DNA of 64,000 bases from a virus. Shown here piece after piece: positions 38,422 to 64,000 of this stretch (its first letter is position 1; every line of letters begins with the position of its first letter). The translations under genes and the position numbers were made by a program. The notes under the pieces are model-generated. The model was given only the letters and a program-made list of their open reading frames with translations. It did not search any database and was not told the DNA's origin. The stretch is from IMG/VR virus record IMGVR_UViG_3300010413_000023, positions 1 to 64,000 of that record, one strand, 5' to 3'.

Positions 38422-38477
38422 TAGTATTTTCGTGGATATATCGCCTGACTACTTATGCGCCACTTTGCCAAAGTTCG

Positions 38478-38518
38478 CGTGCTACGTAAATTCCTTATTT
38501 CGGCATTTGCGTAGCATG
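38478..38518 (+). other. Subterminal hairpin, candidate left end of the IS element
   Basis: TGCTACGTAAAT (38480-38491) and ATTTGCGTAGCA (38505-38516) pair over 12 positions with one wobble, loop 13 nt. IS200/IS605 elements carry such imperfect hairpins near their left end. Confidence 0.6.
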
Positions 38519-38547
38519 ACAAAAGCCGCCAGATGGGGGCTAGATAT

Positions 38548-38576
38548 TTGACAATAGACCTATTTTATGGTATGAT
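38548..38576 (+). promoter_or_regulatory. Rightward sigma70 promoter for tnpB
   Basis: TTGACA (38548-38553) and TATGAT (38571-38576) with an exact 17-bp spacer. It is the only clear promoter facing right in the window. The start site would fall at the beginning of the interlocked repeats, about 150 nt before tnpB. Confidence 0.85.
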
Positions 38577-38579
38577 TTA

Positions 38580-38712
38580 GCTGTGAGACAAAGAGAAGCC
38601 GCGATCATTTTTGAATACCACAAAAGCACAGGCTTTTTCAACAAAGCCCGGTATCATAATTTTCTCTTTGTCTCACAGCAACAGAGAACAAAACAATGAT
38701 ACCGGGCTTTGT
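38580..38712 (+). ncRNA. Leader RNA with two interlocked perfect inverted repeats
   Basis: Repeat A (GCTGTGAGACAAAGAGAA, 38580-38597) is complementary over all 18 nt to A' (38662-38679). Repeat B (ACAAAGCCCGGTATCAT, 38641-38657) is complementary over 17 nt to B' (38696-38712). The order A-B-A'-B' makes a pseudoknot or two competing folds. A third option, GGCTTT/AAAGCC (38631-38636, 38643-38648), uses part of B. The leader ends 17 nt before the tnpB start. Confidence 0.7.
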
Positions 38713-38729
38713 CATGTTAGGCTGAAAAT

Positions 38730-39920
38730 ATGAGAGCATATAAAGCGGAACTCGATCCAAACAACAAACAAATTGGTTTTTTTCGTCAATGCGCCGGCGC
38801 GTCCCGTTTTGTATTCAACTGGGGATTGGCTAGGTGGCAGCAATTATATGAGGAAGGGGAAAAGCCAAGTCGGTATGGTTTGTGTAAAGAGTTCAATTCA
38901 ATCAAAGACGAGCAGTGTCCGTGGATTCGAGCCTTGCCCTATGCCGTTGTCGAGGCAGCCTTCTATGATCTTGGTTTTGCATTCCAGAATTTTTTCAGAC
39001 GTGTCAAACAAGGGGCCGATAAAGCTGGTTATCCAAAATTCAAACAGCGATCAGGGAAACGATCTTTTGCTGTGCGAAGCGCAACCGTTGAGCGCGACAG
39101 AATCAGGATCACCAGCCTGGGCTGGGTGCGTCTCAAAGAAAACGGCTATTTGCCTATCGAGGGCAAGCACACGGTATATGCTAGAATCTCAGAACGTGCC
39201 GGACGTTGGTATGTAGCTATTGGAACAGAACATGAAGCAGAGCCAACAGAACTGACCGATCTTGTAATTGGCATTGACCTGGGCCTCAAGACGCGGGCCG
39301 TATTCTCAAATGGGACATTTTTTGATGCGCCCAAAGCGACATACGAGTATGAGAAAAAGCTGGCGCGGGCAAGCCGTGAACTGTCACGCCGGAAGCGGGG
39401 CGGGCAGAATTGGAAGAAAACAAAGCTCAGAGTTCAGCGCCTGCACGCCAAGATCGCAGACGTTCGCAAGCATTGGTTACACCAGATCAGCCATTATGCA
39501 ACGTATGAGTTGAGGCCAAGCGTGATTGTCCTGGAAGACCTTAACGTGTCCGGGATGGTGAAAAACAGGCACTTGGCGAAAGCTGTCAGTGATGCTGGAT
39601 TTTATGAACTACGGAGACAGATCGAATACAAAGCTGCGTGGCTTGGTATCGAGGTTGTCATAGCAGACCAATGGTTTGCCAGTAGCAAAACGTGTTCTGT
39701 GTGTGGTTGGAAAAACACAGACCTGGCACTCTCGGATCGCGTTTTCAAATGCCCAGAGTGCGGGCTTGAGATGGACAGGGACTTGAATGCGGCGCATAAT
39801 CTGGCCGCTTTAGTGAACCGTCAAACAGACGGGGATTGCCTGGGGAGTTGCGGTGATGTAATGTCGTACTGTGAACCAGGAACTCGGCAGCCGAAAGCAG
39901 GCATAAGAACCGGGATGTGA
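38730..39920 (+). CDS. tnpB: TnpB RNA-guided nuclease (IS200/IS605 family)
   Basis: This 396-aa protein is full length for TnpB, the ancestor of Cas12 nucleases, which cuts DNA guided by an omega-RNA made from the element's 3' end. The N-terminal helix-turn-helix/OB region (FFRQCAGASRFVFNWGL) is intact. RuvC-I has Asp183 (VIGIDLGLKTRA), RuvC-II has Glu269 (IVLEDLNVSGM), and RuvC-III has Asp349/Asp351 (MDRDLNAAHNL). A zinc finger (Cys322, Cys325, Cys341, Cys344) lies between. All catalytic residues are present, so it is probably active. ATG at 38730 has only a weak TTAGG site. It is encoded opposite to the phage genes and read from its own promoter towards the CRISPR array. Confidence 0.93.
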   Translation: MRAYKAELDPNNKQIGFFRQCAGASRFVFNWGLARWQQLYEEGEKPSRYGLCKEFNSIKDEQCPWIRALPYAVVEAAFYDLGFAFQNFFRRVKQGADKAGYPKFKQRSGKRSFAVRSATVERDRIRITSLGWVRLKENGYLPIEGKHTVYARISERAGRWYVAIGTEHEAEPTELTDLVIGIDLGLKTRAVFSNGTFFDAPKATYEYEKKLARASRELSRRKRGGQNWKKTKLRVQRLHAKIADVRKHWLHQISHYATYELRPSVIVLEDLNVSGMVKNRHLAKAVSDAGFYELRRQIEYKAAWLGIEVVIADQWFASSKTCSVCGWKNTDLALSDRVFKCPECGLEMDRDLNAAHNLAALVNRQTDGDCLGSCGDVMSYCEPGTRQPKAGIRTGM

Positions 39921-39964
39921 TCGGGGTAAATCCCGATCATCACCTACGAACTGTGGGATTCAAC
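39790..39964 (+). ncRNA. Omega-RNA-like 3' region of tnpB
   Basis: TnpB guide RNAs overlap the 3' end of the gene. Here the stop codon runs into a hairpin GATCGGG/CCCGATC (39919-39925, 39932-39938), then CTGTGGGATTCAAC ending at 39964. A terminal TTCAAC directly before the guide is what I expect for omega-RNAs of this family. The guide would start at 39965 (GTGGGCTTAATAACTGCATA). The 5' limit is an estimate. Confidence 0.6.
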
Positions 39965-39988
39965 GTGGGCTTAATAACTGCATATAGG

Positions 39989-40263
39989 GTTGAACCCACA
40001 TGCGCGTGGGGGATTGGTCTTGCGATCACTCTTTACAGGTTGATCGAAAGTTGAACCCACATGCGCGTGGGGGATTGGGTGCATCCTGACAAAGCGGCGG
40101 TTGTCTATGCGTTGAACCCACATGCGCGTGGGGGATTGGTGTAGCACGAAAAACGAACTTTGACAAAAGCCAGTTGAACCCACAGGCGCGTGGGAGATTG
40201 GGAAGCCGCATCAGAAATGGTGCGACTTTTGTCAGTTGAACCCACATGTGCATAGGTGACTGA
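39989..40263 (+). CRISPR. CRISPR mini-array, 5 repeats and 4 spacers
   Basis: Repeats of 29 nt start GTTGAACCCACATG and end CGCGTGGGGGATTGG, at 39989-40017, 40050-40078, 40111-40139, 40173-40201 (two changes) and 40235-40263 (second half degenerate). Spacers are 32, 32, 33 and 33 nt and unrelated to each other. CCCAC/GTGGG makes a 5-bp stem in each repeat. Size, spacing and stem are those of type I-E arrays. Decay at the right end places the leader at the tnpB side, giving rightward transcription. No cas1, cas2, cas3 or Cascade gene is in the window. Confidence 0.9.
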
Positions 40264-40409: not shown

Positions 40410-40931
40410 TTACGCTAAATGAAGCGCTTTTGTTTTTTCACCTGCCATGTATGACCACGGGCAATTGTCGGTTGTGAAATATCCGAGACGGTATAATTCA
40501 GCATCCACACGCTCCAGTGTTTTGCTGTGCAGTCTCATTTTAGGGCCATTGGCATCGATCCATGTTGCCATGTTCCAACTGCCAGTATAAGCACGGCTTG
40601 CGCCCAGCCAATCGACCACCATTTCCCGCACATAAATTTCAGGCATTGGCAAACAGCCGTTTTCAGCCTTACTGCCCCCATGACTATGATCGCTACGTGT
40701 GATCCAATATTCCCAGTGATGTGGATTACAGTTTTGATGATGTAGCCACGCCGCTGCAAATCCATGTGGATCGCTTTTGTCTCCAAAGAATTGCCGATCA
40801 TAGTGTGGCAATTCTGATCTTGAGAATTTGCTTATATCATGGACGATAGCACGCCATAGCGGAAACCCTGTCCGAATTGCCGCGATCAAAACGAACCATT
40901 TGTGTTTTAGTGTTGCAAAAAAGTATCTCAT
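40410..40931 (-). CDS. DUF5662-type protein
   Basis: This 173-aa protein has the family pattern TLKHKWFVLIAAIRTGFPLW, IVHDISKFSRSE and FAAAWLHHQNCNPHHWEYW, with many conserved histidines likely to bind metal, related in style to HD-domain hydrolases. It is common in phages and its function is unknown. A 9-bp leader hairpin (40949-40992) precedes its ribosome site. Confidence 0.75.
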   Translation of the reverse strand: MRYFFATLKHKWFVLIAAIRTGFPLWRAIVHDISKFSRSELPHYDRQFFGDKSDPHGFAAAWLHHQNCNPHHWEYWITRSDHSHGGSKAENGCLPMPEIYVREMVVDWLGASRAYTGSWNMATWIDANGPKMRLHSKTLERVDAELYRLGYFTTDNCPWSYMAGEKTKALHLA

Positions 40932-40998: not shown

Positions 40999-43458
40999 CT
41001 AGATGTCGTGTCCGCGTTTCAGTAGATCGATGCCTTTCGGCGTCAACCTGTCGAGCTGGGCCTGTAGCTTGTCGCGTTCGTCGCGCATGATGCGTTGTTC
41101 CTCGCGGGCGTCCCATTCGCGGCGTCCGAGTTGGAGCAGGAATGTTTCGCGTTGTGAGTCGGTCATGTTGATGTAGTCGTCCAGTTCGGCGTCGCTCAAG
41201 ACGGTGGTGTTGCGAATGGCGCGTTCGTCCTCATTATCCTCGCCATACCGGAAATCGACGCTCACCGTGCGGCTGCGCCCGTGCGACTTGACGCGCATCC
41301 CCTCAAAAATGACCATTGGTGGGGGGCGTCGTTCTGTGAGTCGTTCCGACGGTAGGTGTTTCCATTCCTCGACGCCAGCCACGCCACAGGCAATGCAGAA
41401 CACCAGCGCATAATCTGCGTCCTCACCCTGCACGTTCACCGTGCCTGTGCCGCGTTTCATCTGCGCGCCGCACACCGGGCAAATTCGTGTTGAATCCACG
41501 AGGCGCGACGTGCCGGTATTGGCCGTCACGTAATAGATATTGTCCCATTCAGCCGCCGCGCTGCCCAGGTCCTGCCCTTTTGCCGTTCCGGGTATCAAGT
41601 CGCCGTCCGGCTCAAGTGTGAGCATCGTCGCAATCGCGCCGCCGTCCGACACGCGGAACAACAACGATGACTGATAGGTCGCATTATCGTGCTCGTCGAA
41701 CACGGCCTGAATGTGAGCGATAGTGACGTTTGCCGCAGCGCCTGCGCCGTCGGTATCCGTAGCAAACCCGAGACGTACCCCGTTGCCGTCAGTCGTATCG
41801 GGATTGTAGAATGAGTTAAACACCGGTGCGGCTGCGTTTGAACGTTGGTAAACGGCTACGCCGCCAGCCGTGGTGACGTGTAGGGCTGCCAGAGGCGTTG
41901 CCTCGCCGATGCCGACGCGCCCGTCTGAACCACGAACCCACAGGGCATTCGGCACGCCCACGGCCTCGATACGGGTATCCACGTCCGCACCGCCCTCGTT
42001 GAATACGTTATCCGTCGCCCCGAAATGGACGAACTCACCCAGGGCAACGCCTGCCTTTCTGATGTAATAACGGATGATCGTACCCTCAGCCGCCGCAGCG
42101 GGGTTTTCCCATTCGACCAGCATCGAGGCGGCGTCCTCCATTGCCCCGCCCGCGTCCTCAAGACGGTAGAGGATGCGCCCGGCAAAACCCGCAGCCGCCG
42201 CTCCACTTGTGGCATGTTCCATCGTTTGCCATGTTGAGTAGGTATTGGTGATGGCATCGCTGACGTATTGCGTCGTACTGCCCTCGGCGTCGATCACATA
42301 TTTGATCGCGGGCGCGCCGTCGTATATTTTGAGCACAGAGTTGGCGTCTGTGCCGGGTAGGTTGATCTGCAAGTCCGACTGCGTTGCCACGCCGCTATCG
42401 TCCAGGAAAATCACCGCCGTGTCGTCATTCGTCCCACCCACGAGCCGGATCTGTGGCGAATCGGATGCACCATCGTCCAGCACGAGATTCTGAGAACCGG
42501 TCAACACGCCCGTCGCGCCAACCAACCAGGGCGTGCCTGGATCGCCGTCGCTTGCAGCCAACGCAGCGGGCGGGTAAACGATGCGCCAAGCCCCTTCCCA
42601 AACTTGCCACACCTGATCGGTATCAGTTTCGGCAAAGTGGGTCAGCTCGGCAAGGTCGCCAACGACGAGTAGTAAACGCTCGGCATTCGTCCCGATGATC
42701 CACGGCGCGTTCCACGAAACCAGATCCCACAGGAAACGCCAGTCATAAATGTCATCCTCGGTGATCGTCGTCTGTCCGTTTTCAAGGTCAACCAGGCATA
42801 CCGGGATCGTATTTGCCGATAGGTCAGGGATTGGTGCAGCGGCTGCAAGGGGCACGATCAACCCGTCATCCGAGTCCAGCGTATTAGACGCCCCATCCAC
42901 AAAAACGAGCGTGAAACGGTGCCCGGCTACACCCGGCACGCTCGCCGCCAGATTGATATTCGCGCCGGGAAAACGGTGAACGTCGGCATAGCCGAAAACG
43001 TATTGCCCCCGTTCGACGTGGACGGTCAGATCCGGCGTCGCCTGTGCCCGCCCGCGCATCTCGACGATGTTTCTCAAGTCAATCGGCGCGGGGTCTGCCC
43101 CCGATGCGGCGTTGTGCGATTCGCCGTGGTTGCCCGTCGTAAAATTGTCAACCGTGTCCTGGCTGATCACATCCTGGTACAACGTCCAGTTGACGGCGAG
43201 CACCTGCTCAAATTCGTCTGTTGGAAAACGCCGCCCCACGACGATGGGAAAATCCTCGGGGATGCCGGGAGCGATGATGTTGAACACCTTTGATACTTTG
43301 CTCTGGTCGGCACTATACCGGCACCAGATATACCCCGGCTCACCTGCAACATTCACCGTCCCGCCGCCATTCCCGGCCAGGGCGTTGCGGTATTTCGCGA
43401 TCGTCTGTTTTGAGTCTAGCAGTTTCTGCCATTCCAAGATGGCGCGTTCTTCGCTCAT
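40999..43458 (-). CDS. Tail fiber or appendage protein with C-terminal zinc ribbon
   Basis: This 819-aa protein begins with a helical virion-binding segment, followed by long beta-rich repeats. Around residue 530 GRVGIGEATPLAALHVTTAG is the motif often found before the end of phage fibers, and GQDLGSAAAEWDNIYYVT follows. Then comes an unusual tail: CPVCGAQMKRG...CIACGVAG (zinc ribbon) and a charged coiled coil (EEQRIMRDERDKLQAQLDRL). It probably binds the host surface. The zinc part may be a chaperone or a fused small protein. Confidence 0.7.
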   Translation of the reverse strand: MSEERAILEWQKLLDSKQTIAKYRNALAGNGGGTVNVAGEPGYIWCRYSADQSKVSKVFNIIAPGIPEDFPIVVGRRFPTDEFEQVLAVNWTLYQDVISQDTVDNFTTGNHGESHNAASGADPAPIDLRNIVEMRGRAQATPDLTVHVERGQYVFGYADVHRFPGANINLAASVPGVAGHRFTLVFVDGASNTLDSDDGLIVPLAAAAPIPDLSANTIPVCLVDLENGQTTITEDDIYDWRFLWDLVSWNAPWIIGTNAERLLLVVGDLAELTHFAETDTDQVWQVWEGAWRIVYPPAALAASDGDPGTPWLVGATGVLTGSQNLVLDDGASDSPQIRLVGGTNDDTAVIFLDDSGVATQSDLQINLPGTDANSVLKIYDGAPAIKYVIDAEGSTTQYVSDAITNTYSTWQTMEHATSGAAAAGFAGRILYRLEDAGGAMEDAASMLVEWENPAAAAEGTIIRYYIRKAGVALGEFVHFGATDNVFNEGGADVDTRIEAVGVPNALWVRGSDGRVGIGEATPLAALHVTTAGGVAVYQRSNAAAPVFNSFYNPDTTDGNGVRLGFATDTDGAGAAANVTIAHIQAVFDEHDNATYQSSLLFRVSDGGAIATMLTLEPDGDLIPGTAKGQDLGSAAAEWDNIYYVTANTGTSRLVDSTRICPVCGAQMKRGTGTVNVQGEDADYALVFCIACGVAGVEEWKHLPSERLTERRPPPMVIFEGMRVKSHGRSRTVSVDFRYGEDNEDERAIRNTTVLSDAELDDYINMTDSQRETFLLQLGRREWDAREEQRIMRDERDKLQAQLDRLTPKGIDLLKRGHDI

Positions 43459-52883: not shown

Positions 52884-53207
52884 TCACCCTCGCAATCGTG
52901 CGAAATAGCGCACGTCAAGTACTAGCGCCCCGGCAGCCGATGCCAGCCACACCGCGAGCGCCTCTAATATATTCAAGTCCGTAAATGCGTAGACGGGAAC
53001 GCACAGCACGAATGCCACGACAAGCGACATACACCAGAAACAATCGAACAGCGCGCCAATGACGTTATGCGGCACAATTCGCGCCCCGAGTTCGATGTCC
53101 TCCTCGACGCCAAGACGGTCACGCAGCCACTGGAACGGCGCTTCGGTGTACAGCAAAGATGACACCCGCCACGTCGCAAACGAGAGCAAAACGAACCAGG
53201 CGATCAC
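52884..53207 (-). CDS. DUF1360-like membrane protein
   Basis: This 107-aa protein has the pattern of DUF1360: FATWRVSSLLYTEAPFQWLR, then FDCFWCMSLVVAFVLCVPVY, with two or three transmembrane helices. The family is found in sporulation loci and many phages and its role is unknown. It overlaps the triple glycosyltransferase gene by 4 bp. Confidence 0.65.
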   Translation of the reverse strand: MIAWFVLLSFATWRVSSLLYTEAPFQWLRDRLGVEEDIELGARIVPHNVIGALFDCFWCMSLVVAFVLCVPVYAFTDLNILEALAVWLASAAGALVLDVRYFARLRG

Positions 53208-53782
53208 CCAAACACCGCCTCTTGAATCTGTCCAAATGCCGCCGGGCCGATACCCTTGATGTCGCGGATCTTCTTGCCCTTATTGGCAATCACGTCCTGC
53301 CTGATCGCGCCTTTTGTCTCGAACCCCGCCGCCAATAGCTTGTTGACAATCGTCTCGCTCAGCCCCAAAGACGCAACGGGAACGTCTTGCGTTGTGACGG
53401 GCGCTGGCGCTGGTTCTGGCTCCGGTTCTGCCCTCGCTGCACGGACGGGCACTTGCCCCTCGACAGGAAATGCCAACTTTTGCACGACGGGCGGCTTTTT
53501 GGGCAGTTCGGGCACCTTTTCTTCCGGCGCAGGTGGGATGTATCGCTCAAAATCCTTGTGACGCACCACCCACTCGTCGCCACGTTCCAGCGTCAAGATC
53601 GTACCCTGACTGAACGTGTATTTTTTGCCCGGCACGGCTTTGGAGTTCATCGAGCGCGTGCCCTGTTGTGGGGCAATGCAGATCGCCATCATTTGCTCGC
53701 CGTCGGGCAGCATGTCGCCCTGGAACTCTAGCGGCTTGATAACTTTCGCCGGTGCTTTTTTACCACATCCTTTACATGGCAT
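53204..53782 (-). CDS. Possible internal product of the glycosyltransferase gene
   Basis: An in-frame ATG at 53782 (MPCKGCGKKAPAKVIKPLEF) is preceded by GAAAGGAAAAGGAC, a good ribosome site. The 192-aa product would be the Cys-site plus HhH part alone. Its N-terminus looks like a natural protein start, so the large gene may be a recent fusion of two genes. Confidence 0.45.
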   Translation of the reverse strand: MPCKGCGKKAPAKVIKPLEFQGDMLPDGEQMMAICIAPQQGTRSMNSKAVPGKKYTFSQGTILTLERGDEWVVRHKDFERYIPPAPEEKVPELPKKPPVVQKLAFPVEGQVPVRAARAEPEPEPAPAPVTTQDVPVASLGLSETIVNKLLAAGFETKGAIRQDVIANKGKKIRDIKGIGPAAFGQIQEAVFG

Positions 53783-56128
53783 GTCCTTTTCCTTTCTCGC
53801 AATGTATGCGTATACACTATAAATTCTCTCTTTGACCTCGGGCGTGCCGTACCCGGCATTGTCACCATCACTTTTGCTCGAACCCCCCGCAAGCGATGTC
53901 CAGTGCCGGTACACACCCCACGGAAATGATTCGAGATACGCAGCCCCGATGCCCAGCATGTGCATCTTGAGGCCGAATATCCAATCTTCCCATTCCACGT
54001 CGTCGTCGTAGCCCCCCACCGCCGCCCACCATTCTTTCGCAAAGAGGCACGTATCCTGATAGATCGCCTCTTTGTTGATGTGCTCCCACGTCCAGCGCCC
54101 CGAGTGATAGTAGACGGTTTTACCAGGCACGTCCTCGGTGAAACAATCGGCATAGACCAAACAGTCTTGGTTAGCTAGCCACGTCTGATAGAATAGGCGC
54201 AACGTGCCAGGATACATCAAGTCATCGGCGTCAAGGGGCACGATCAAGGGGGCTTTTGCCGCCTCAGTCGCCAGGTTGCGGGCATAGGCTGCTCCCTTTC
54301 GCCCACCGGTGTCCACGACTTTTACCCACGGATGCCCCATTGCCGCCACGTCCAGCGGCTCGCCGGTGTCGTTTGCCACGATGCACTCAAACTCACGGAA
54401 CGTCTGGGCATACACGCTGTCAAGCGCATCCATCAAATACAGGTCGTGCCCCGGCCCCACAGGGATGATCACGGCGATGTGCGGCTGTTCGTAGGAGCGC
54501 ACGGGCCACGAATCGTTCGGGGCTTTGCCCAAAAACCCGAACGGCGTCAGGTCTGGAAATGCCCGCCATGGGTAATAGAAATTCCACGACAGCGGGCCCT
54601 CGGGGTCATCCTCGCCCCCCTCTTTGGCTGTCTTGTTCTCGCCGTGCCAGCGGTAGACGAAAACGGGTTCATCCACCAGGTATTCACACCGCAGCCCCGC
54701 CGACATCGCCCGGCACCAGAACTCGGCGTCCTCATTTTTGCGCTGCCTCTGCCGGTAGCCACCAATTGCTCGCGTCGAACGTGTCCGGGCAATGCACGTG
54801 GACGGGATCTGGTTGGCGTGGTCAAGTTGCGCCTTGTAGTCCACCGCGCCGCCGTTCGTCTCCTTTTTACCGTAAATGCTATACATTCCCGTCGCTACGT
54901 CTACCCACGGGCGTGCCTCTATGGCGTCGTACAGTTTGCGAATGCCACTCAGGGCCATCACGTTATCGGCGTCCAGGTTGATCCAGTACCTGCCATGTGC
55001 CGCGTCGTGTCCGGTGTTGAGTGCCGCGCACAAGCCCCCGTTCCGATAGTGACGAATAACGCGCAGTCCCTCATACGCCTTCAGCACGTCCTGGGTGTTG
55101 TCCGTGCTCGCATCGTCAACGACGATCACTTCCATTGACGGCGCGTCCGTTTGCGCTTTGAGCGAGTCCAGGCATTCGGGCAAATAGTGGGCATAGTTGT
55201 ATGTCGGGATAATGACGCTCACTTCAACTGGATATTGATCCGCCTGCCACGCCTCATAGATAACCTGTGCGTACTGAGCCATTAGGTCGCGCCATTGGTA
55301 GCGGGCCTGAACGTGCATGCGCCCATTGTTGCCCAGCTCGGCGCGATTGTCCAGGCAAAAGTGCAGCCCGCGCAGCAGGTCATCATAGTCGCCCGGCTTG
55401 GCCAGATATCCCGTTTTGCCGTGGATGACGAGTTCGCCCGTTGCGCCCCAGTCCCAACCCAGGACGGGAATGCCGAGAGCCATCGCCTCGCGGCTGGCAA
55501 TGTCGCCCGTCTCGCGGGCCGTCGCCAGCCACACCGATGCCCTGGCCAGCGTCTTTTTGAACTGATCGTGTGGCTGCGCGCCGATCACCTTGACGTTTTG
55601 CGCGGGCCGTCCGTATGTGGTGACGAACTGCGTATTGAGCGCCCTCATTGCCAGCTCGTTGACGGGCCTCGGATCGCTCACCACGTCAACGCGGGGTTTT
55701 GCCCACAGGACGTACCCGCCAGGCGCTTGCGGTTTGAACTCGTCAAAGTCGATACCGTGCGGGATGACATCCACCCGCTTTTTCATATCGCGTCGGATCG
55801 GCTGGGCAACCCACTCGGACGGGACGATGATCCGGTGCGCCTCGCGTAATGCCTCGATCACCTGGATGTTGTACTGCCAGTAGTCGCGGTGCCAGTCCAT
55901 ATCCCCGGTCCAATAAAGCCCGTGATTGACGCAAATGAGCGGCTTTTTCGTCTGGACAAGCGAACCAGCATGAACCATCACGACATCGGCGCCAGCTTCT
56001 GAATTGACAAGCTCAATCCCGTATTCAGGCAACCACCTGCCCTGGGCATTGATCACGCGCCAAATGCCGCCAGAACCGACACCATCCTCGGTATATTCGC
56101 TTGGGTGAGGTGAGATAAAAAGTTTCAA
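53204..56128 (-). CDS. Triple glycosyltransferase fusion with C-terminal HhH domain
   Basis: This 974-aa protein contains a GT-B (GT4-like) domain in residues 1-300 (IIVPSEWVAQPIRRDMKKRV, VDVIPHGIDFDEF and EAMALGIPVLGWD), a GT-A (GT2) domain from about 303 (VSVIIPTYNYAHYLPECLDS, VVDDASTDNTQ, INLDADN), and a second GT2 from about 560 (IAVIIPVGPGHDLYLMDALD, PLDADDL). Residues 780-974 carry a Cys site (MPCKGCGKK) and helix-hairpin-helix repeats (LGLSETIVNKLLAAGFETKG, IRDIKGIGPAAFGQI). It would build a surface glycan from three sugars or linkages. The last part may also be made alone. Confidence 0.85.
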   Translation of the reverse strand: MKLFISPHPSEYTEDGVGSGGIWRVINAQGRWLPEYGIELVNSEAGADVVMVHAGSLVQTKKPLICVNHGLYWTGDMDWHRDYWQYNIQVIEALREAHRIIVPSEWVAQPIRRDMKKRVDVIPHGIDFDEFKPQAPGGYVLWAKPRVDVVSDPRPVNELAMRALNTQFVTTYGRPAQNVKVIGAQPHDQFKKTLARASVWLATARETGDIASREAMALGIPVLGWDWGATGELVIHGKTGYLAKPGDYDDLLRGLHFCLDNRAELGNNGRMHVQARYQWRDLMAQYAQVIYEAWQADQYPVEVSVIIPTYNYAHYLPECLDSLKAQTDAPSMEVIVVDDASTDNTQDVLKAYEGLRVIRHYRNGGLCAALNTGHDAAHGRYWINLDADNVMALSGIRKLYDAIEARPWVDVATGMYSIYGKKETNGGAVDYKAQLDHANQIPSTCIARTRSTRAIGGYRQRQRKNEDAEFWCRAMSAGLRCEYLVDEPVFVYRWHGENKTAKEGGEDDPEGPLSWNFYYPWRAFPDLTPFGFLGKAPNDSWPVRSYEQPHIAVIIPVGPGHDLYLMDALDSVYAQTFREFECIVANDTGEPLDVAAMGHPWVKVVDTGGRKGAAYARNLATEAAKAPLIVPLDADDLMYPGTLRLFYQTWLANQDCLVYADCFTEDVPGKTVYYHSGRWTWEHINKEAIYQDTCLFAKEWWAAVGGYDDDVEWEDWIFGLKMHMLGIGAAYLESFPWGVYRHWTSLAGGSSKSDGDNAGYGTPEVKERIYSVYAYIARKEKDMPCKGCGKKAPAKVIKPLEFQGDMLPDGEQMMAICIAPQQGTRSMNSKAVPGKKYTFSQGTILTLERGDEWVVRHKDFERYIPPAPEEKVPELPKKPPVVQKLAFPVEGQVPVRAARAEPEPEPAPAPVTTQDVPVASLGLSETIVNKLLAAGFETKGAIRQDVIANKGKKIRDIKGIGPAAFGQIQEAVFG

Positions 56129-61484: not shown

Positions 61485-61997
61485 TTACACTTTCCTTTCC
61501 CATCGCTCACCCTTGTCGGGCGGCTCGTGTGTTCGTGAAATCTCGGCGCACAGTCGCGCCTTTTGCTCCGGCTCGTCGCCATTCCAGACGATCCGCAATT
61601 CTCTCACCTGTCGCATCCGGTCACAGTCGAGCATCTGTGTCAAAATTTCGTACTCGCTGCCGTTGCAGTCCAGGTACAGCAGGTCAACCTCGGCAATGTG
61701 GGCATAGACGAACCAGTGATTCATCGACACAACCGTGCAACCCTCGCTCGGCTCACCGCTGCCGTGCAGCGTCGCGCTCGAACCATTGCACAGATGCAAC
61801 GTGTCCGGCCGGTCGTTGCCGCCGATAGCGAATGGTAGAAGCGTCACGTTGTCAAGCCCTTCCAGCCGCTTGAATGCGATGCCCCGCATCGTCGTTGACG
61901 GCTCGAATGTCTGGACGATGACGCCGGGGGCTTGCGCTGCCTGCCATGCCCACGAACCATCGCCCGAGCCGACTTCGAGAATAAGACGGCTATCCAT
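61485..61997 (-). CDS. FkbM-like methyltransferase, 170 aa
   Basis: LILEVGSGDGSWAWQAAQAP is the SAM loop and EVDLLYLDCNGSEYEILTQM the FkbM-like acidic motif (usual D-x-E-G becomes D-C-N-G, a change that could affect metal or substrate binding). Shorter than typical FkbM proteins. Confidence 0.68.
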   Translation of the reverse strand: MDSRLILEVGSGDGSWAWQAAQAPGVIVQTFEPSTTMRGIAFKRLEGLDNVTLLPFAIGGNDRPDTLHLCNGSSATLHGSGEPSEGCTVVSMNHWFVYAHIAEVDLLYLDCNGSEYEILTQMLDCDRMRQVRELRIVWNGDEPEQKARLCAEISRTHEPPDKGERWERKV

Positions 61998-62448
61998 CTA
62001 TCACCACACTTTCCATGATCCGCTTTTCCTCGGCCTCCCAAATTCGCAGCCTCATCGCCGAACTAGACCAATTATGCTGCCGTTCGTGCCAATGGATGCG
62101 TTTTGCCGCGTCGGGGGCCGTGATCTGCTTTCCCTTCCAGTCGCTGCCGATGATCCGCACGTCCGGCTGTAAGTCCTCAAGGATCGCCTCAAGTTCGGCT
62201 TCGGTGTTGTAGACCTTGATGTCAGCCACGTACTTGATGGCCTGGAGCACCATAATGCGCTCGTCGATGGTTTGCACCGGCTCGTTTTTGTCGGGCCGTT
62301 CGTACTGCGGGTTGGCGTGCAGGCCCACAACAAGGATGTCGCACTGCCCTGCCGCATCGGCCAGCATCAGGATGTGGCCGGGGTGCAAACAGTCAAAGGC
62401 TCCACAGGTGAACCCGACGACAGGGACCGCAAATGCCACGCTTCCCAT
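61990..62448 (-). CDS. Cytidylyltransferase (RfaE/TagD-like)
   Basis: This 152-aa protein has FTCGAFDCLHPGHILMLADA with the HxGH nucleotidyl-transfer motif and the RIIGSDWKGKQI region of TagD/HldE C-terminal domains. It activates a sugar or alcohol phosphate with CTP or ATP. ATG at 62448 after ACGGAGC. Together with the SIS isomerase it suggests activated-heptose synthesis. Its start overlaps the upstream gene by 82 bp. Confidence 0.83.
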   Translation of the reverse strand: MGSVAFAVPVVGFTCGAFDCLHPGHILMLADAAGQCDILVVGLHANPQYERPDKNEPVQTIDERIMVLQAIKYVADIKVYNTEAELEAILEDLQPDVRIIGSDWKGKQITAPDAAKRIHWHERQHNWSSSAMRLRIWEAEEKRIMESVVIDG

Positions 62449-63116
62449 GCTCCGTGGTTCCACGTCATCTCGTGAGTCTTGGCAAGCGCACCTTGTATCC
62501 CCACCTGAATCGCATTCGCATTTTCCACGACACTGTGCCATTGTAGCATTATCCTCTCTATTCGCCGGATCAAACCCGATCCGATCACGTATGGTAAAAG
62601 CTCGAACTCCATCCCCTCGATATTGATCGCCGCCAGGGCAATGCGCTCGATCTTTTCCCGTTCGATAAACTCGCGGACGTTGACGATCTCGGCGTCCCGG
62701 CCCGTCTGTCCACCGTATTTCCCGCCTGGTATGAATGACGCCCCGTCCCGCTGATCGTCGTACAGTTTGAACGTGCCCGACGTGACGCCCAGCCCGAAAT
62801 TGTGCAAGTGGACGTTCTCGAATTTGCCCAGCCGCCCCTTGGCGACATTGTATGCCCGCACTGCTGGCTCGAATCCGTGATAAACGCACCCTGGGTACTT
62901 TTTCACCATCCGGCTGATCCATTCGCCCTCGTATGAACCGACATCGAACACGACATCGCCGGGGGCCAGTTCGTCCCAGACGCAATACCGCGTGTTCTCG
63001 CCGTCGCATTCATACCAGCCGCCTGACCATACGTACCACTCAGGCCACGTCGGATCTCGCTTTTTCCAGAGCTTTAGTTTAGCTTGCGTTTCTGGAGCGA
63101 TACCAGTTGATGACAT
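62367..63116 (-). CDS. FkbM-type methyltransferase, 249 aa
   Basis: GDVVFDVGSYEGEWISRMVK, CVYHGFEPAVRAY and RIALAAINIEGMEFELLPYV give the FkbM order of motifs. An N-terminal Trp-rich segment (PTWPEWYVWSGGWYECDG) is unusual. Start at 63116 (MSSTGIAPETQAKLKLWKKR). Confidence 0.78.
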   Translation of the reverse strand: MSSTGIAPETQAKLKLWKKRDPTWPEWYVWSGGWYECDGENTRYCVWDELAPGDVVFDVGSYEGEWISRMVKKYPGCVYHGFEPAVRAYNVAKGRLGKFENVHLHNFGLGVTSGTFKLYDDQRDGASFIPGGKYGGQTGRDAEIVNVREFIEREKIERIALAAINIEGMEFELLPYVIGSGLIRRIERIMLQWHSVVENANAIQVGIQGALAKTHEMTWNHGAWEAWHLRSLSSGSPVEPLTVCTPATS

Positions 63117-64000
63117 TTTCCAGCCCTTCCTCAAGTGCCACCTGATACTTCCAGCCCAGAGCATTTGCCTTGTGCGAATCGGTGCGCCTGCTCACATCGC
63201 CCGTCGTGCTGTTACAATCTATCGTTACATCTGCTTTACTACCCGTGTACGCATAGATCAGTTCCGCCAGCCGCCCGATGGTAACTTGAGTCTCGCCGTT
63301 CGTGCCCAGGTTGTATGCCTGTCCACATTCGCCGTGTTCTGCTACAGCCATCATACCCCGCGCACCATCGTCGGCATAGAGAAATTCACGCTTTTGCACG
63401 CCACCCCAAACGGTGAACTTGTCCAATGTCAGGCACTTTTTAATCAGCGCCGGGATGACGTGGGCTCGTTCGTCGAAATAGTCGCGGACGCCGAATAAAT
63501 TGGTGGGCCGCACAATGCACCACCTGGTATTGGTTTCCTCGAATGACCACTCACACACGCGCTCACCCATCCGCTTGGCCCAGGCATAACCGGCGTTTGC
63601 CGGTTCTGGTTCGCCCTCGTGCCCGAATGCCTCGTGTGCCGGGTTGTTGTGTTCGCCCGAATACACACACACGCTCGACACCTGGACGAACACGGGAATG
63701 TTACGCTGTGCCGCGACCACCGCCGGGATCGTCTGGAGCTGCACGTTTTTGTAGAACTGTGAGGTGTGGTTGCTCTGGTTGAAATAGACGCCCCCGACTG
63801 CCGCCGCCAGGTTGAATACCGCAAATGGGTTAAGCTTATGATAGGAAAACATTTCCATCCAGTTTGGATAATAGGACGCATCACCCACGTAGTACTCGCA
63901 CCCAGCCACGCGATACGTGCCCCTGGATTCGTCATCAAAGCCGAACACTTGCGCGCCCTCGTTGCGTAGAAACTCGCAGAGACGGCTGCCGACCATGCCC
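63079..64000 (-). CDS. NAD-dependent sugar epimerase/dehydratase, N-terminus outside window
   Basis: The frame is open to the right edge and reads G-M-V-G-S-R-L at the border, so the beginning of the Rossmann loop (GxxGxxG) is just outside. FNLAAAVGGVYFNQ, VQVSSVCVYSGEH and the catalytic YAWAK (Tyr-x-x-x-Lys) place it among GDP-fucose synthase/HldD-like short-chain epimerases. It would make the activated sugar used by the cassette. Confidence 0.85.
   Translation of the reverse strand, partial: GMVGSRLCEFLRNEGAQVFGFDDESRGTYRVAGCEYYVGDASYYPNWMEMFSYHKLNPFAVFNLAAAVGGVYFNQSNHTSQFYKNVQLQTIPAVVAAQRNIPVFVQVSSVCVYSGEHNNPAHEAFGHEGEPEPANAGYAWAKRMGERVCEWSFEETNTRWCIVRPTNLFGVRDYFDERAHVIPALIKKCLTLDKFTVWGGVQKREFLYADDGARGMMAVAEHGECGQAYNLGTNGETQVTIGRLAELIYAYTGSKADVTIDCNSTTGDVSRRTDSHKANALGWKYQVALEEGLENVINWYRSRNAS

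Follow-up and report, generated by a model that had tools for sequence, protein, structure and literature searches.

Known relatives and the window locus

Type V CRISPR (clustered regularly interspaced short palindromic repeats) systems are believed to have evolved from TnpB on many separate occasions, and TranC and LaTranC (PDB 9jfo, 9jfq) are TnpB-derived intermediates between TnpB and Cas12 that use a split omegaRNA with an array. Here we describe a tnpB gene followed by a short CRISPR array in a 64,000-base window (the whole stretch of DNA that was analysed) of the 68,190-bp virus contig IMGVR_UViG_3300010413_000023 of IMG/VR, which also carries phage genes for a terminase, a DnaB-like helicase, a helicase loader and a primase. 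The TnpB of this phage has probably lost its transposon and come to act as a minimal type V-like CRISPR effector guided by array RNAs, and the locus looks like a CRISPR system at an early evolutionary stage.

The TnpB proteins of IS607 and IS605 insertion sequences with their omegaRNA (ISDra2, ISFba1; the reRNA of IS607, PMC11061315) resemble the window protein in fold, in residues and in the position of the omegaRNA core, at the gene's 3' end, and several of the nearest array-less plasmid relatives of the window TnpB adjoin IS607-type recombinases. Unlike these elements, the window record contained no transposase when searched, its scaffold is followed by repeats and spacers, and one relative (L034) carries the scaffold away from the 3' end of tnpB. 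Cas12n (V-N, V-U4) is a TnpB-like miniature effector with its trans-activating CRISPR RNA (tracrRNA) inside the effector mRNA and an AAN protospacer-adjacent motif (PAM) (PMC11641405). This motif is compatible with the AAG of a parallel lineage described below, the one in which flanks could be read. In contrast to Cas12n, the window protein is nearer to TnpB in sequence and structure, RdCas12n giving the lower sequence score. It differs from TranC and LaTranC in its sequence match (127 bits, against 270 bits to ISDra2), in having a phage as carrier and in the contiguity of scaffold, repeat 1 and spacer 1.

About 50 TnpB-CRISPR association events are assigned to subtype V-U (cited in PMC12669027), and arrays beside two viral TnpBs (401 and 433 aa) are reported from a landfill (PMC12607003). 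In the accessible text of these accounts, TnpBs of similar size lie by arrays, also in viruses, a likeness in description; that text reports the association, and it describes neither a phage clade in which the pairing is conserved, nor repeats from an omegaRNA end, nor AAG flanks. Viral mini-CRISPR arrays are short, carry spacers against related viruses, have repeats identical to those of the host and use host Cas proteins (PMC11656645). Short arrays and spacers against related viruses are likewise seen here, in the parallel lineage, but in our loci a nuclease gene and a scaffold RNA accompany the array. As a kind, the locus is already known (type V-U), TnpB-array associations being on record in the same accessible text. 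The phage clade, its separated scaffold, the recurrence of 61-nt arrays and the proposed growth of arrays from an omegaRNA end go beyond the descriptions found there; overlap with the main catalogue lists is possible.

TnpB and its pairing with arrays

Pfam profiles OrfB_IS605, Cas12f1-like_TNB and HTH_OrfB_IS605 each scored above cut-off on the window protein, and its RuvC residues (D183, E269, D351) and zinc-ribbon cysteines (322, 325, 341, 344) were invariant across 30 relatives, confirming an earlier note on this DNA that had recorded an intact TnpB. The AlphaFold model had a predicted local distance difference test (pLDDT) value of 84.5, and the closest solved structures by Foldseek were the TnpBs of ISFba1 (template modelling, TM, score 0.74) and ISDra2 (TM 0.76). 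LaTranC gave a TM of 0.73 with a weaker sequence score, and RdCas12n (9j09) a TM of 0.32. The effector is a TnpB/Cas12-type protein with an intact RuvC and is a TnpB, not a member of the Cas12n family. The label Cas12u4 assigned by PADLOC was rejected as a family name; it is uninformative because ordinary TnpBs without arrays score equally with the same profile. The last 28 residues of the protein (369-396) were predicted to be disordered, and their DNA doubles as scaffold RNA. In L035 (3001-4254), a stop codon was observed in the tnpB tail within the scaffold region, consistent with a constraint on RNA, not protein, in that region.

The array downstream comprises five repeats at spacings of 61, 61, 62 and 62 nt with four unrelated spacers, and its self-match (28/28) was not approached in 300 other windows of the same contig (maximum 23), so that the CRISPR array proposed on the tnpB strand is genuine. 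The last two repeats decay, which places the leader side next to tnpB. The distance between the two had been given as 25 bp and is wrong, since 68 bp separate the tnpB stop from repeat 1; the consensus promoter proposed ahead of both was found (Table 1). The exact pattern of the window repeat had no match in any other virus contig or species genome searched.

The pairing of tnpB with an array is conserved. In the first relative (L004), a TnpB with 51% identity is accompanied at the equivalent place by four repeats of different sequence, and the two phages have only distant proteins in common, mostly 25-35% identical. Further relatives were found by alignment-based searches of virus contigs, the check that the earlier note had proposed, and the window TnpB fell into a clade with L004, L034, L035, L036 and L037 (bootstrap 98; Shimodaira-Hasegawa-like approximate likelihood ratio test, SH-aLRT, 91). 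An array adjoins tnpB in all six members, each from a different viral contig, the other five TnpBs being 48-57% identical to that of the window. The repeat sequences vary between members, and L036 has just two copies, 51 nt apart, one of them degenerate. The interpretation of gene and array as a system is thus supported, TnpB loading of array RNA being putative.

Elsewhere in the TnpB tree, arrays were present in L106/L109, L116 and L161/L165, with a degenerate form in L099, and by its supported branches the pairing must have changed four times or more. In the 480 bp that follow tnpB, strong periodicity of 58-65 nt (at least 18 matches in 22 bases) was detected in 11 of 122 loci, compared to 2 of 580 background windows.

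Resolvase, Y1_Tnp and Cas1 were each absent from the array-phage records searched, whereas control genomes gave the expected matches. The claim that no other cas gene accompanies the array therefore holds for cas1; beyond cas1 it was checked just by scans of selected proteins. As non-autonomous IS607/IS605 forms exist, a record without a transposase may still hold an insertion sequence remnant. Alignment of TnpB against species genomes found no relative.

Other repeats and arrays were noted during these searches. A contig of 143 kb (IMGVR_UViG_3300031566_000001; L169-L176) holds two related phage genomes in tandem, their largest matches about 75-83% identical, both with tnpB and an array and with differing spacers. 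A two-copy 30-nt repeat with a 63-nt period that resembles the window repeat lies in a distantly related phage, in a record without tnpB (L008, 3459-3551; L010, 3924-4016), its copies overlapping the ends of open reading frames (ORFs). G002/G003 carry an array-like two-copy repeat that also overlaps ORF ends, without tnpB. The leader motif TTAAYAACTGYATATAGG gave one match outside the clade, in an unrelated array-less phage, as chance predicts.

Scaffold RNA, repeats and spacers

Between the TnpB core and repeat 1 lie 104-158 nt that are homologous to omegaRNA. RNAalifold on the six clade loci returned 25 pairs, 14 of them with compensatory change. When scaffold and repeat 1 were taken together, 96.6% of the cells were paired and 15 pairs had changed on both sides, a result equalled in none of 500 shuffles; the covariation score was 0.64, with shuffling lowering it to 0.27 and sliding to 0.07-0.12. 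The covariance model of the clade matched the 3' ends of tnpB in L106, L109, L096, L099 and IS607 TnpBs (E-values 2e-7 to 0.02). Nothing in the window reached the gathering threshold of Rfam; sub-threshold matches were obtained with Transposase-2 RNA to the scaffolds of L034 and L035, and with RAGATH-18 to an IS607 relative.

L034 separates the scaffold from the gene end. Its order is promoter (TTGACA-17-TATACT, similar to that of the window), scaffold, array and tnpB; its TnpB is without the usual tail, and the covariance model finds a single scaffold copy, which lies ahead of tnpB and leads into the array. Since scaffold and array stand together upstream of the gene, the scaffold appears to belong functionally with the array. 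The conserved structure and this arrangement point to a tracrRNA-equivalent scaffold associated with the array. A near-complete anti-repeat was present in the window (the segment in Table 1 with its flanking bases) and in L116. No general anti-repeat covariation is proposed, as pairing between scaffold and repeat was not clearly stronger within systems than between them.

The comparison with array-less relatives and the PAM reading cover the enterobacterial lineage. Two array-less enterobacterial relatives (L189 and L160) align over the whole region past tnpB and contain exactly one repeat copy each, which is the omegaRNA end and is followed by unrelated sequence, clearly in L189 and in diverged form in L160. 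From this alignment, each spacer insertion may have copied the terminal hairpin of omegaRNA, so that spacer 1 came to lie exactly at the guide position. All 29 array units measured were 59-63 nt long and 24 of the 29 were of 61 or 62 nt, the size made by the type I-E integrase.

Spacers turn over in the parallel lineages. L106 and L109 have near-identical TnpBs and repeats and entirely different spacers, and the enterobacterial phage-plasmids L161, pSe13 (L186) and CP054718 (L187) have identical repeats with different spacers, the trailers of the last two being almost identical. In this enterobacterial lineage the spacers match rival phages. The L161 spacer matches (32/32) the protelomerase gene of Salmonella phage-plasmids, whereas L161's own protelomerase-like gene contains a similar stretch with a match of just 25/30. 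Both pSe13 spacers match tape measure genes of phage-plasmids of this kind (94-97%), and the L165 spacer matches (87.5%) a gene of a Klebsiella phage-plasmid that bears the annotation DUF1983 (in phage records, tail fibre or protein J), compared to 27/31 in its own carrier DNA. The 5' flank was AAG, the type I-E PAM, at the protospacers with the three best matches (L161/L186 lineage), and AAA at the one with the poorest match. As a separate observation, the 118.8-kb Salmonella record CP054718 contains a tnpB-array element and also the protospacer in the protelomerase gene that the L161 spacer matches.

Searches across phage records gave weak matches only, and a plasmid search found none for the spacers of L036, L037, L106, L109 and L116. 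For window spacer 1, a seed match in L198 (IMG/VR; 21/32 identity, flank TGA) was judged to be chance, and short matches were all that was found for self-targets of the window spacers. Allowing for a 5-nt gap, spacer 3 is similar to DNA upstream of tnpB (38464-38530) read as its reverse complement, and it has TGTAGCACGAAA in common with an L004 spacer; both may be chance.

Features of the locus are collected in Table 1. The structured region ahead of tnpB contains inverted repeats that are 18/18 and 21/23 complementary; it had no Rfam match and was not seen in relatives. Immediately past the array, a DUF5662 gene lies on the opposite strand (40410-40931), and large glycosyltransferase and nucleotide-sugar genes (heptose adenylyltransferase-like, epimerase) occupy 53204-56128 and 61990-63996. 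The neighbouring protein encoded at 40999-43458 had no relative in virus contigs, and no close relative of the window phage was found.

Table 1. Positions in the window of the features of the tnpB-array locus.
Feature	Position	Strand	Evidence or remark
Sigma-70-like promoter TTGACA-17-TATGAT	38548-38576	+	11/12 consensus matches; precedes tnpB and array
5' untranslated region, strongly structured, two nested inverted repeats	38578-38725	+	Fold z-score -6.1
TnpB, 396 aa, RuvC and zinc ribbon intact	38730-39920	+	Pfam, invariant residues, AlphaFold model, structure search
Putative scaffold RNA derived from omegaRNA (tracrRNA-like), overlaps tnpB 3' end	39831-39988	+	Covarying helices common to six loci
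Candidate anti-repeat GTGGGATTCAAC	39953-39964	+	Complementary to repeat 5' half GTTGAACCCAC, one bulge
Repeat 1 GTTGAACCCACATGCGCGTGGGGGATTGG, 29 nt	39989-40017	+	
Spacer 1	40018-40049	+	No confirmed protospacer
Repeat 2	40050-40078	+	
Spacer 2	40079-40110	+	Protospacer searches negative
Repeat 3	40111-40139	+	
Spacer 3	40140-40172	+	Protospacer searches negative
Repeat 4	40173-40201	+	2 changes
Spacer 4	40202-40234	+	Protospacer searches negative
Repeat 5, degenerate	40235-40263	+	6 changes; trailer end of array

Readings of the locus and their meaning

In the mechanism that we infer for RNA loading, processing, cleavage, spacer acquisition and the targets of the window spacers, a single promoter would drive tnpB, the omegaRNA-derived scaffold and the short array, and TnpB would bind the scaffold plus one repeat-spacer unit. 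The first unit (repeat 1, spacer 1) would serve in cis as an ordinary omegaRNA with its guide, and later repeat-spacer units in trans, with the scaffold as tracrRNA. TnpB would then cut DNA that matches the spacer, most likely the genomes of competing phages. The repeat would be the terminal hairpin of omegaRNA, duplicated with each new spacer, and a host type I-E-like Cas1-Cas2 would insert the spacers in trans, as suggested by the unit length (28-29 plus 32-33, giving 61-62 nt) together with the AAG of the parallel lineage.

Several observations weigh against this proposal. No protospacer was found for the four window spacers in phage, plasmid and local searches, and the evidence on spacer targets and PAM comes from a lineage in which the pairing of tnpB and array arose separately; with at least four changes in the tree, the features of one lineage need not apply to another. 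L096, sister to the clade, has the scaffold and is without an array. Anti-repeat pairing is convincing in the window and in L116, and weak or absent in several relatives. Of the defence or competition role suggested in the earlier note, the part that stands is the targeting of rival phage-plasmids in the separate L161/L165 lineage, and no such target was found for the window phage's own spacers. Use against rival phages is nevertheless probable.

The strongest competitor, itself unlikely, is that the array is a mini-array serving a host type I-E Cascade in competition between phages, as in archaeal viruses, with TnpB a separate neighbouring element. The window array has type I-E dimensions (28-29-nt repeat, 32-33-nt spacer), the repeat forms an I-E-like hairpin, the parallel lineage shows an AAG PAM, and mini-arrays in phages that make use of the host's Cas proteins have been described (PMC11656645). 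In those known cases the repeats are identical to those of the host (PMC11656645). The L161 repeat and the I-E repeat of Salmonella disagree at about 12 of 29 positions. Moreover, no array stands apart from the TnpB scaffold, the two lying together upstream of tnpB in L034; the pairing recurs in several TnpB lineages; and array-less relatives have the repeat as their omegaRNA terminus. A host Cascade would thus explain the unit length and the PAM, but not the linkage to the scaffold, the recurrence with TnpB or the repeat at the omegaRNA end.

Somewhat less likely again is that the first unit alone is used, scaffold, repeat 1 and spacer 1 forming an ordinary single omegaRNA in which each new spacer takes over as the guide while the downstream units are inert. 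A single RNA model fits scaffold and repeat 1, which are contiguous, many arrays hold one or two spacers, and the anti-repeat signal is uneven, all as that arrangement would have it. Perfect repeats over three to four units in L106, L116 and L037 argue the other way, suggesting that inner repeats are selected or recently duplicated.

There is very little to recommend a TldR-like regulator, in which the array would guide the protein to bind phage or host promoters and not to cut them: spacer 3 has its gapped resemblance to DNA upstream of tnpB, but this is weak and one among many comparisons, all RuvC catalytic residues are present, and the parallel lineage targets coding genes of rivals. The simpler alternative of the earlier note, a tnpB insertion sequence landed by chance beside an unrelated CRISPR array, is the least credible of all even with TnpB genes abundant in phages, as it is contradicted by recurrence in six of six clade members with a scaffold that tracks the array in L034, by the conserved scaffold joining gene and array, and by the lack of a transposase in the records searched.

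On the reading of TnpB as an array-guided effector, a further step can be put forward tentatively, at somewhat less than even confidence: arrays may arise directly from the omegaRNA of TnpB when a host I-E-like Cas1-Cas2 duplicates the terminal hairpin and places a spacer at the guide site, giving adaptive phage-borne CRISPR without its own cas1, and repeatedly so in phages. If true, this would be an observable route to the origin of type V. The passage from a single-guide omegaRNA to a tracrRNA with an array has so far mostly been inferred from end products, and the related loci span stages with no array and one omegaRNA end, with one spacer, with several spacers and with the scaffold separated from the gene 3' end. 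The unit length and the AAG flanks supply a concrete hypothesis for the source of spacers. If TnpB uses the arrays, these phage nucleases of 360-400 aa would be multiplexable adaptive systems in conflict between phages.
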